Assembly: GCA_004293365.1 (NCBI GenBank) | Contig: RDYN01000019.1 | Location: 19,176 to 83,175, forward strand | Reading direction: 5' to 3' | From: Oscillatoriales cyanobacterium | GTDB taxonomy: Bacteria; Cyanobacteriota; Cyanobacteriia; Cyanobacteriales; Microcoleaceae | DNA: 64,000 nucleotides | Shown here: piece by piece, positions 17,438 through 44,206 of the stretch | Layout: every line of letters starts with the position of its first letter | Numbering within the stretch: position 1 is the first letter of the stretch | Program-made: the position numbers and the translations under genes | Notes under the pieces: model-generated | The model's database searches: none | Seen by the model: only the letters and a program-made list of their open reading frames with translations | What the model was told of the DNA's origin: nothing

Positions 17438-17826
17438 AAGAAGACCGGGCGATTGAAATCGCGTCTACACACACAAAACAAGCCGGACGCCGGTTGAAGA
17501 AGACCGGGCGATTGAAATCGCGTCTACACACACACAAAACAAGCCGGACGCCGGTTGAAGAAGACCGGGCGATTGAAATCGTGTCTACACACACAAAACA
17601 AGCCGGACGCCGGTTGAAGACAAAGGCGGTGAAAATTACCCCATCTTCTTCTTTAGTCCGCGCACCATCCGGACTTTGTTTGTGTAGGCGCGGTTTCTAA
17701 CCGCCGTCCGATATTTTTTTGTGTAGGCGCGGTTTCTAACCGCCGTCCGATATTTTTTTGTCTAGACGCGGTTTCTAACCGCCGTCCGATATTTTTTTGT
17801 CTAAACCTGGTTTCAACCGCCGTCCG
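17438..17826. repeat. Composite inverted-repeat element with tandem arms (copy 1)
   Basis: The left arm is three tandem copies (period 59-61) containing GCGATTGAAATCGCGTCTAC. The right arm is four tandem copies (period 40) containing TGTGTAGGCGCGGTTTCTAA and CCGCCGTCC. A central hairpin at 17655-17675 reads AGTCCG-CGCACCATC-CGGACT. The arms are inverted relative to each other. The right end covers the last codons and stop of the cpcT-like gene. The same composite occurs at 43985-44206 with compensatory changes. It is not a CRISPR array, because there are no unique spacers of regular length. Confidence 0.85.
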
Positions 17827-42318: not shown

Positions 42319-42572
42319 CGGAATTTAACAGTAAGACTGAAATTTGTTTACTTGTAGGATTATAGCTGACTGAGGCTGTCTGCGTGCGATCGCCCTTACC
42401 GCCAACTTGATTGCAGAGGGAACCCCCGGATGTGAGATAATTTTAGGCGATCGCAAATTACGCATTACTGCACAGCCGCCAGCGGGCGCGGTACAGTCAA
42501 AACACCCGCAGCGCCGTGTTACCAAAAAATTGTACAATTCTGTGCAATTCTAATTATCACAAACCAGACGAT
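42319..42572. other. Intergenic region with an open frame of unknown status
   Basis: An open frame without an upstream ATG runs on the plus strand from 42374 to a stop at 42553. It encodes IALTANLIAEGTPGCEIILG, DRKLRITAQPPAGAVQSKHP and so on. The composition looks protein-like but no start codon other than CTG/TTG exists. It may be a remnant. Confidence 0.4.
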
Positions 42573-44024
42573 ATGACCCAACAGCCAACCATCACCTACC
42601 GCACCGAAAGCGACTCGATGGGAGACAAACAAATCCCATCTACTGTTTACTACGGTATCCAAACTCTGCGCGCCGTTGAAAATTTTCCCATTAGCGGTAT
42701 CAAACCTTTATCAACTTACATCGATGCTTGCGTTTTAATTAAAAAAGCTGCCGCAATTGTCAACGGTAAACTCGGCTGCATTCCTGAAGATATCAGCGCT
42801 GCACTGATCGAAGCTGCTGATGAAGTTTTAGCAGGAAATTTGCGCGATCAATTTGTCGTTGATGTCTACCAAGCAGGCGCCGGAACTTCTCACCACATGA
42901 ATGTCAATGAAGTTCTTTCCAATCGCGCTTTGGAAATTATGGGCGATGAAAAAGGTAACTACAAGCGCGTTAGTCCCAACGATCATGTAAACTACGGTCA
43001 ATCGACTAATGATGTGATTCCAACTGCCATTCGGATCGGCGGATTGTTGGCCTTGGAAAAAACTTTGTTTCCGGCTTTGTCAGGGGCGATCGCATCCTTG
43101 AACAAAAAAGCCTTAGAATTCCACGATATCGTTAAATCCGGCCGCACTCACCTGCAAGATGCCGTCCCGGTTCGACTCGGTGAAACCTTCGGCGCCTGGG
43201 CACAAATTCTCAGGGAACATACCGCCAGAATTGAAACTGCATCGGGAGATTTAACATCCTTGGGATTGGGGGGAAGCGCAGCGGGAACGGGCTTAAATAC
43301 TCACCCAGAATACTGCGAAAAAGTCGCTCAAATTCTTTCGGAGTTAATCGGAAAACCCCTAAAACCAGCGCCGCATTTAATGGCAGCAATGCAGAGTATG
43401 GCGCCGTTTGTAAATGTCTCTGGCGCGCTCCGAAATCTCGCTCAGGATTGCGTTAAAATGTCCCACGACTTGCGTTTGATGGACTCGGGGCCGAAAACTG
43501 GTTTTAAGGAAATTCAACTGCCTCCGGTGCAACCTGGTTCGTCAATTATGCCGGGGAAATACAATCCGGTAATGGCAGAAATGACATCGATGGTTTGTTT
43601 TCAAGTCATGGGTTACGATAGCGCGATCGCCCTTTGTGCCCAAGCAGGACAATTAGAATTGAACGTGATGATGCCCCTGATCGCCTACAATCTCATTCAC
43701 AGCATCGAAATTTTGGGCAATACCATCAGCGCCCTAACAACCAAATGCCTCGACAAAATTGAAGCCAAGGGCGATCGATGTCTCGCCTACGCAGAAGGCA
43801 GTCTCGCCCTCGTTACCGCCCTCAATACTCACATCGGCTATCTCAACGCCGCCGCCGTCGCCAAAGAATCTCTCGAAACCGGCAAATCTTTGCGGCAAAT
43901 TGTGCTAGAACGCGGTTTAATGAATGCAGAAGACTTGGCAAAAGTTCTAGATTTAGAGAAAATGAGTGCGATGCCAGAATACCGGGCGGTTGAAACCGCG
44001 CCTATAGAAACAAAACCCTTCTAG
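42573..44024 (+). CDS. aspA: Aspartate ammonia-lyase
   Basis: AspA converts aspartate to fumarate and ammonia. The 483-residue protein has the superfamily signature GSSIMPGKYNPV (GSSxMPxKxN with the Lys-Tyr-Asn form typical of aspartase) and SGRTHLQDAVPVRLGE, NYGQSTNDVIPTAIRIGG. ATG at 42573 precedes TQQPTITYRTESDSMGDK, the usual start; the upstream Met at 42516 overlaps a remnant frame. The last dozen residues (RAVETAPIETKPF) and stop come from the composite repeat beginning at 43985, so the tail is probably not functional sequence. Fumarase is excluded by motif form, though not proven. Confidence 0.9.
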   Translation: MTQQPTITYRTESDSMGDKQIPSTVYYGIQTLRAVENFPISGIKPLSTYIDACVLIKKAAAIVNGKLGCIPEDISAALIEAADEVLAGNLRDQFVVDVYQAGAGTSHHMNVNEVLSNRALEIMGDEKGNYKRVSPNDHVNYGQSTNDVIPTAIRIGGLLALEKTLFPALSGAIASLNKKALEFHDIVKSGRTHLQDAVPVRLGETFGAWAQILREHTARIETASGDLTSLGLGGSAAGTGLNTHPEYCEKVAQILSELIGKPLKPAPHLMAAMQSMAPFVNVSGALRNLAQDCVKMSHDLRLMDSGPKTGFKEIQLPPVQPGSSIMPGKYNPVMAEMTSMVCFQVMGYDSAIALCAQAGQLELNVMMPLIAYNLIHSIEILGNTISALTTKCLDKIEAKGDRCLAYAEGSLALVTALNTHIGYLNAAAVAKESLETGKSLRQIVLERGLMNAEDLAKVLDLEKMSAMPEYRAVETAPIETKPF

Positions 44025-44206
44025 TGCGGGTTGAAGGCCGGGCGGTTAAAATTACATTATTTTCTTCAGTCCACGCACCATCTGGACTTCGTTTGTGTAG
44101 ACGCGGTTTCAACCGCCGTCTTATCTAACTTTCTGGCGGTTTCAACCGCCGTTTTATCTAACGCTTACGTTTGTGTAGACGCGGTTGCAACCGCCGTCTT
44201 TTCATA
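43985..44206. repeat. Composite inverted-repeat element (copy 2)
   Basis: The left arm is GGCGGTTGAAACCGCG (43985) with a second unit near 44039. The central hairpin AGTCCA-CGCACCATC-TGGACT lies at 44068-44088. The right arm is three units containing TGTGTAGACGCGGTTTCAAC or CGGTTGCAACCG (44095-44200). It is the same design as 17438-17826. The left end covers the end of aspA. Confidence 0.85.

Follow-up and report, generated by a model that had tools for sequence, protein, structure and literature searches.

Inverted pairs of a two-hairpin repeat are dispersed through cyanobacterial genomes and adjoin IS200-type Y1 transposase genes

Results

Two elements built from one unit

The window, by which we mean the whole 64,000-nucleotide stretch of cyanobacterial DNA analysed here, contains two distant elements that are both made of inverted pairs of a repeat unit of ~60 nt. 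The unit consists of a first hairpin (HP1, AGTCCG-CGCACCATC-CGGACT), a linker (TTGTTTGTGTAG) that ends in NTAG, and a second hairpin (HP2, CGGTT-TC-AACCG, then CC). Two such units, inverted around a spacer, form an element of ~150 nt, which can be extended by tandem repeats of whole units or of HP2 alone.

In element 1, the left-hand side is occupied by three inverted tandem units on the minus strand (17441-17620), each in the order HP2, linker and degenerate HP1, with the first degenerate HP1 at 17480-17495. A spacer at 17621-17654, comparable to those of other copies, separates them from the right-hand HP1 on the plus strand (17655-17675); seven sister genomes have the orthologous element with a GGAG loop instead. 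The GTAG foot (17684-17687) and HP2 (CGGTT at 17691-17695, AACCG at 17699-17703) follow on the same strand at 17684-17703, and about four 39-nt tandem repeats, each of linker plus HP2, cover 17681-17826. The tandem spacing is 39 on the right side, and 59 and 61 on the left. Element 2 is an inverted pair of ~150 nt on the plus strand (43976-44126), an extent shared by the matches of many further copies (query positions 676/677 to ~827). Its left unit lies on the minus strand (43986-44032) and comprises HP2 at 43986-43999 and a degenerate HP1, AACCC...GGGTT, at 44014-44032. On the plus strand are HP1 (AGTCCA-CGCACCATC-TGGACT, 44068-44088), for which the sister-genome orthologues have GGAG or GCAG loops, the GTAG foot with HP2 CGGTT/AACCG (44097-44115), and two extra HP2 copies (44134-44206). 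HP1 is degenerate in the left units of both elements; the left arms (the first an HP2 at 17450-17461) read CGATT/AATCG and the right arms CGGTT/AACCG.

An earlier note on this DNA had described two distant elements of one design sharing the loop CGCACCATC. Both cores were indeed found, and at up to three mismatches they are the only matches to the HP1 core in the window (17655-17675 and 44068-44088; 0.00 expected from 100 shuffles). The double change pointed out there, AGTCCG/CGGACT against AGTCCA/TGGACT, is read in these same two stems. The inverted design stands as well, but the proposed central hairpin with arms has to be redrawn as inverted copies of the two-hairpin unit HP1-linker-HP2. 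Compared with shuffled sequences, DNA folding gave z-scores of -5.80 for the 389-nt element 1 and -5.71 for a 151-nt stretch of element 2.

In 275 distinct units seeded by the linker only, so that pairing played no part in their selection, the tetranucleotide at the foot of HP2 is GTAG in 185, ATAG in 66, CTAG in 16 and TTAG in 8, TAG being fixed by the seed. In two units (L073 near loop position 1969 and L092 near 2003), the GTAG of HP2 is succeeded by a different palindrome, GGGGCAATCCCCC...GTGGTTGCCC, which gives the impression of a second REP inserted into the foot of this hairpin.

A dispersed, mostly intergenic repeat family

The assembly of the window genome (G000, 7.3 Mb) is in draft form, with 218 contigs and a stated completeness of 99.99. 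The element has at least 71 blastn places there, a lower bound, 40 of 171 first-look candidates having been scored, and the CGCACCATC core occurs 53 times at up to two mismatches. Among 29 genomes of the genus, 26 have at least one such core at the same threshold and 21 have the CGCACCATC loop by exact pattern. Counted by two patterns, the numbers of HP1s with GGAG and with CGCACCATC loops are 46 and 54 in G000, 168 and 8 in G006, 263 and 7 in G010, 191 and 11 in G011, 145 and 42 in G023, and 65 and 31 in G026; over the 29 genomes they range from 2 to 263 and from 0 to 54, respectively. The cores are mostly intergenic, 2 of 66 CGCACCATC cores in the G000 loci examined being situated well within an open frame of at least 150 codons. 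The family thus has the layout of REPINs, that is, dispersed extragenic inverted pairs of palindromic units in many copies. Phage records gave no match to the 151-nt element, and a tRNA search of the sequence found none.

Gain and loss at orthologous sites

A comparison of filled and empty orthologous sites shows that the element has been gained and lost. Site 1 (element 1) is a gap between converging frames; among the 29 genomes, 10 have the element there (two as remnants), 17 are without it and 2 are not readable. At site 2, element material is present in 8 genomes (rearranged in two), absent from 20 and not readable in 1. This second site is the 3' end of a gene at window positions 42516-44024, presumably of the fumarase/aspartase type, whose final codons are contributed by the element in those genomes that carry it. 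No clean junction at which a target-site duplication might be read was seen at the two sites among the 29 genomes; intergenic DNA differs between filled and empty sites, so no exact junction can be named. The same gap at site 1 holds, in G002 (L313), a beta-type two-hairpin element (see below) enclosed by a further inverted repeat, GTGTCAACTTAA...TTAAGTTGACAC. In G023 (L287) and G010 (L289), the spacer of the site 1 element is interrupted by an insert of ~240 nt, which we take to resemble the right end of an IS605-type element.

A host function that retains the copies, such as a bidirectional terminator or a nucleoid or replication site, would agree with the intergenic bias and with the many copies in genomes without the Y1 transposase described below, e.g. 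G000 and G026. It appears improbable, given that the number of GGAG-type HP1s in a genus genome can be as low as 2 and as high as 263 and that sites 1 and 2 are not common to the whole genus.

A Y1 transposase gene between the units

In G019, a gene for a 157-residue Y1 protein (L134) has units on both sides. All nine Y1 genes of the genus with the motif YI[RK]NQA[VI]HH, from nine genomes, are adjoined by units (eight scored by script and L176 by eye; L174 is a broken gene). Directly beside tnpA in L170 and L176 stand AACCCG-CGCACCATC-CGGGTT units, which have the exact loop of the window elements. A profile search above 130 bits detected tnpA in 10 of the 29 genus genomes, a fragment in G015 among them, and broken pieces in G013; in the same search, no such transposase was found in G026 or in the draft G000, whose copies are therefore probably no longer moving. 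Units without tnpA are present in 19 of the 29 genomes, with 173 GGAG-type HP1s in G024 and 158 in G025. Nevertheless, GGAG-type HP1s are commoner in the 10 genomes with tnpA than in the 19 without it (Mann-Whitney p = 0.004, uncorrected for kinship).

More widely, tnpA was found at more than 200 bits in 15 of 386 sampled cyanobacterial genomes, and a scan of named genomes yielded 48 tnpA loci, 40 of them cyanobacterial. All 48 were scored within ~300 nt against three unit sequences composed from observed units, with 159 stretches from the same loci as background (median 10, 95th percentile 13, maximum 41). A unit score of at least 24 on both sides of tnpA was obtained for 38 of the 40 cyanobacterial loci, the other two being L214, with a unit on one side only, and L222, where a contig end leaves no downstream flank. 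Of the eight non-cyanobacterial loci, only L219 (26/25) and L226 (21/19) stand above the background levels for this unit type, and their genes are flanked by a single inverted unit on either side; the other six (L220, L221, L223, L224, L225 and L227) score 11-16. Other inverted repeats are found at L224 (score 53), L225 (score 50) and, by eye, L220. The flanking units are inverted in Nostoc, L219, L226 and others, and both inverted and direct in Microcoleus arrays. In a plasmid collection, the best identity was 37.9%, and two Bacteroidota matches had inverted repeats (scores 46 and 35) without a clear pair of hairpins in each arm.

When 400-nt flanks were scored for any inverted repeat, at least 25 was reached by 45 of the 49 rows that carried the clade label and by 13 of the 15 with the sister label, against a median of 13 and a 95th percentile of 25 in 400 control frames; low scores were those of L279 (12), L282 (15), L207 (17) and L206 (18). 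For these labels, EDHIH/YV.NQK genes were placed in the clade and the ENHVH gene L215 in the sister; the tree sorts them otherwise, and the later counts go by the Y motif.

Upstream of tnpA in L191, L192, L198, L201 and L209, there is a second unit and then a copy of the tnpA start. The inverted HP1 ends ~10 nt before the start codon in these loci and may therefore mask translation. An AlphaFold model of TnpA had a mean pLDDT of 43 and was set aside.

The enzyme and its clade-specific units

TnpA passes the NCBIfam model of IS200/IS605 transposases (69.7 bits, cut-off 55) and fails the REP-associated (RAYT) model (24.6, cut-off 80); its solved relatives include the ISHp608 transposase. Its motifs are Y---Q--HH, DH[IV]H and WQ, with EDHLH in two of the nine members. 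By these motifs and its length, it fits subclass 1.2 of the TnpAY1 proteins, for which the parts of PMC6006769 compared here give the same motifs, ~150 residues and an occurrence in cyanobacteria and Bacteroidota. Those parts describe the subclass as low-copy, as lacking, in general, typical terminal structures, and with "no" under REP. The flanks of the present subclass-1.2-like genes depart from this description, since the genes lie between two-hairpin units that also have many dispersed copies, and the description of the subclass itself may need to be changed.

The Y---Q--HH group is supported at 97/96 in a tree built from 96 distinct proteins. Unit type follows the transposase clade in cyanobacteria. 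The HP1 motif of the window type (alpha) accompanies 35 of 44 rows with YI.NQ..HH; seven of the nine misses are cyanobacterial and, by eye, have units whose stem is CCAC..GTGG or whose copy is disrupted; the remaining two, L221 and L223, have other repeats. In the sister clade, with YV/YA.NQ..HH, the alpha motif is found in 0 of 21 rows and a second HP1 motif (beta) in 18 of 21. The arms of L273 and L277 from this clade fold as two hairpins, those of L273 being AGTCGGTTTTAACCGACT-TTCAGCTATTAG-ACAGGGAATTTATTCCCTGGC. The beta pattern also matches the alpha sequence AGTCC..GGACT, so that beta counts within the alpha clade are meaningless. Genes with G handles entered only the inverted-repeat scores, the tree and the motif counts; the latter, which missed the seven cyanobacterial rows, are superseded by the unit scoring of the 48 loci. 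G000 also has a second hairpin family, AGTCCTC..GA..ATG.GGACT, with a similar stem and a different loop; these are possibly beta-type HP1s.

Among 31 IS200/RAYT rows, alpha was found in none and beta in one.

A rival reading takes the units as ordinary REPs or REPINs of resident RAYTs. G000 does contain three RAYT-like genes and a fragment, the units form REPIN-like inverted pairs, the foot of HP2 is most often GTAG (185 of 275, within a seed that fixed TAG), and an isolated HP2-like hairpin is found close to the RAYT gene L009. Each of these genes, however, sits among other palindromes, the 24 class-2 rows of the tree are without the alpha motif, and a looser rule gave one match, never more, in 6 of 26 class-2 and 7 of 12 IS200 rows. 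Moreover, the TnpA that the units do flank passes the IS200 model and not that of RAYTs. We consider this reading very unlikely, and the resident RAYTs were rejected as movers on the grounds of the other palindromes around them and the single HP2-like hairpin near L009. The palindrome families proper to the RAYT-like genes L009, L010 and L011 (contigs C129 and C116) are AGAAACCGGGTTTCTT, GTAGGGTGTGCACCGCGCACC and GTAGTGTGGACTTTAGTCC.

HP1 loops apparently replaced in place

The HP1 loop differs between close relatives at the same locus. The CGCACCATC loop makes up 54 of 100 counted HP1s in G000 and 8 of 176 in the sister genome G006. From the 46 candidate CGCACCATC copies of G000, 24 had their flanks searched in G006, a comparison of one draft genome with one other. 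The orthologous element has a GNAG loop at 16 loci and another loop at 1, there is no alignable element at 7, and the CGCACCATC loop was found at none of the 24; as the copies were picked for the G000 loop, the fraction of 16 in 24 is not a rate. Alignments of 13 loci set GAGG against CACCATC within otherwise similar elements, and in two pairs (L028/L359 and L002/L360) this loop difference affects each of the two HP1s in the element. Locus-specific features beside the loop are common to both genomes, namely an A-T pair with TTCGTGTGTG (L013/L356) and TTCCTTTG (L006/L353), which argues that the loop alone was replaced. GGAG also occurs in further sister genomes at sites 1 and 2 (with GCAG too at site 2), so that the loop state of G000 is probably derived there.

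Short-tract conversion between copies would account for this exchange. More tentatively, a biased conversion limited to the loop might swap the HP1 tips between dispersed copies and spare the locus-specific pairs of the stem and bases of the linker; TnpA or a hairpin nuclease would cut the tip, and a different copy would then serve as template for the repair. We hold this to be possible rather than probable; if true, one loop would spread through the repeat family like a homing allele. A literature search, at the level of listings, returned no description of such a loop-limited exchange.

Pairing and covariation

Sorted by loop, the 275 units comprise 70 with CGCACCATC, 105 with GNAG and 100 with other loops, the last being excluded from the HP1 count. 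Inside the outermost pair, non-Watson-Crick cells are 2 of 350 in the CGCACCATC type and 13 of 630 in the GNAG type, and stems changing unpaired at the rate of loops, the outcome that would have spoken against a conserved fold, were thus absent. The outermost pair is itself often broken, with A-A in 30 of 70 and 12 of 105 units, respectively. All 275 HP2 upper stems have 1243 of 1375 cells in Watson-Crick pairs; in the 251 units with at least three of five upper pairs, a choice biased toward pairing, CGGTT/AACCG was counted 122 times, CGATT/AATCG 79 and CGAAT/ATTCG 25. An extra C is present on the 3' side of HP2 in 238 of these 251. In the register that bulges it, one lower pair was matched 124 times against a shuffled mean of 94.8 (maximum 114) and another 127 times against 128.9; the predicted consensus fold pairs this C with a G at the foot, and the bulge is therefore not relied upon.

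The compensatory changes claimed from the two window copies proved real and general. From 166 distinct units, 70 were drawn at random; 94.6% of their 910 cells are paired and 114 are double-changed, and the covariation score of 0.316 exceeds the shuffled mean of 0.158 (0 of 500 as high) and the slid controls (at most 0.078). Two other measures on this set are less distinctive: 6 pairs have double changes, matched by 58 of 500 shuffles, and there are 10 further pair types, fewer than the 12.8 of the shuffles.

In an RNA, G-U pairs should be favoured. Departures from pairing were 4 G-T and 5 A-C cells in HP1 without its outer pair (small numbers) and 28 G-T and 23 A-C in the HP2 upper stem; as G-T is not commoner than A-C, the RNA reading is unsupported, and of the proposed selection on folded RNA or DNA the pairing is retained and the RNA is not. 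The pairing is real and points to folded DNA over RNA. Hairpins selected in a transcript, as a regulator, terminator or RNA stabiliser, would suit the mostly intergenic location (2 of 66 cores inside frames) and the place of site 1 between converging frames; with units that flank a transposase and occur in both orientations, and Rfam covariance models that gave no match at gathering scores, we judge a structured RNA most improbable.

The earlier conclusion that such changes exclude mere copying was too strong. The AACCC and AGTCC sub-families are set apart by the double changes of HP1 pairs 2 and 3, and pairs 5 and 6 vary in both; as the two large HP1 double changes separate two sub-families, they represent few events. 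Template switching within hairpins is, in the parts of PMC8794818 compared, a published mechanism that yields double changes without selection. It would explain the scarcity of mismatches and the change of whole blocks of pairs together, and would agree with the replacement of HP1 loops in place. Against it, the A-A outer pair of HP1 persists in 30 of 70 units, which correction would tend to remove, and the extra C of HP2 is kept in 238 of 251, a weaker point since the consensus fold pairs this C with the foot G. That template switching instead of selection on a fold made the compensatory changes is possible but less likely, and the process could also add to the mobile-element explanation developed below.

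Discussion

Our results most likely reveal REPIN- or MITE-like non-autonomous elements of an IS200-type Y1 TnpA that is present in related cyanobacteria. As in MITEs, the copies share their inverted ends with an autonomous element, carry no gene of their own and are variably present at orthologous sites. The autonomous parent would be the IS200-type tnpA, encoding a Y1 HUH transposase with Y---Q--HH, between its units. These would fold when the strand is single, e.g. on the lagging-strand template; TnpA would grip the hairpins, possibly using the tetranucleotide at the HP2 foot (mostly GTAG) as a guide, cut, and then transfer the single strand to another location. Elements that lack tnpA, including both in the window, would be carried in trans. 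Binding, cutting, transposition and the role of each hairpin are what we infer by analogy with IS200/IS605 and TnpAREP; the parts of PMC8266576 compared here describe guide tetranucleotides 5' of palindromes and single-strand transposition.

The layout is REPIN-like and the enzyme IS200-like. The REP doublets and REPINs associated with RAYTs, as far as covered in the portions of PMC3116915 compared, are alike in being short extragenic inverted pairs with tandem clusters and in having a Y1 gene beside matching units; here, there are two hairpins per half, the enzyme passes the IS200 model and the association with RAYTs is lacking. TIRtrons and their TIRYTs, some with double palindromic TIRs, also have a Y1 gene between palindromic inverted repeats and dispersed copies in some genomes, but the corresponding parts of PMC3733652 place them in Pseudomonas, Stenotrophomonas, Acidobacteria and a few others, with enzymes that share RAYT motifs. 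HP2 may overlap the cyanobacterial GTAG-12, -15 or -16 of the same paper. The literature search yielded no paper describing the HP1-linker-HP2 unit, a comparison that covered parts of the text of the sources. The claim that no described family has this layout can thus be kept for the unit itself, whereas REPINs and TIRtrons come close in layout. IS200/IS605 elements share the TnpA family and hairpins near the gene; they differ from the present system by its inverted unit pairs and its two hairpins per unit. The ends of IS200 lie on one strand, and the flanking units here are inverted or, in Microcoleus, both inverted and direct.

To conclude, this work offers probable cognate DNA units for a Y1 subclass that had been described without REPs. 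The combination of an IS200-type enzyme with REPIN-like units would make a test case for the origin of the REP/RAYT systems from insertion sequences. Besides, the loop exchange bears on how covariation is to be read in repeated hairpins and, if confirmed, would represent concerted evolution of an uncommon kind, confined to some ten nucleotides.
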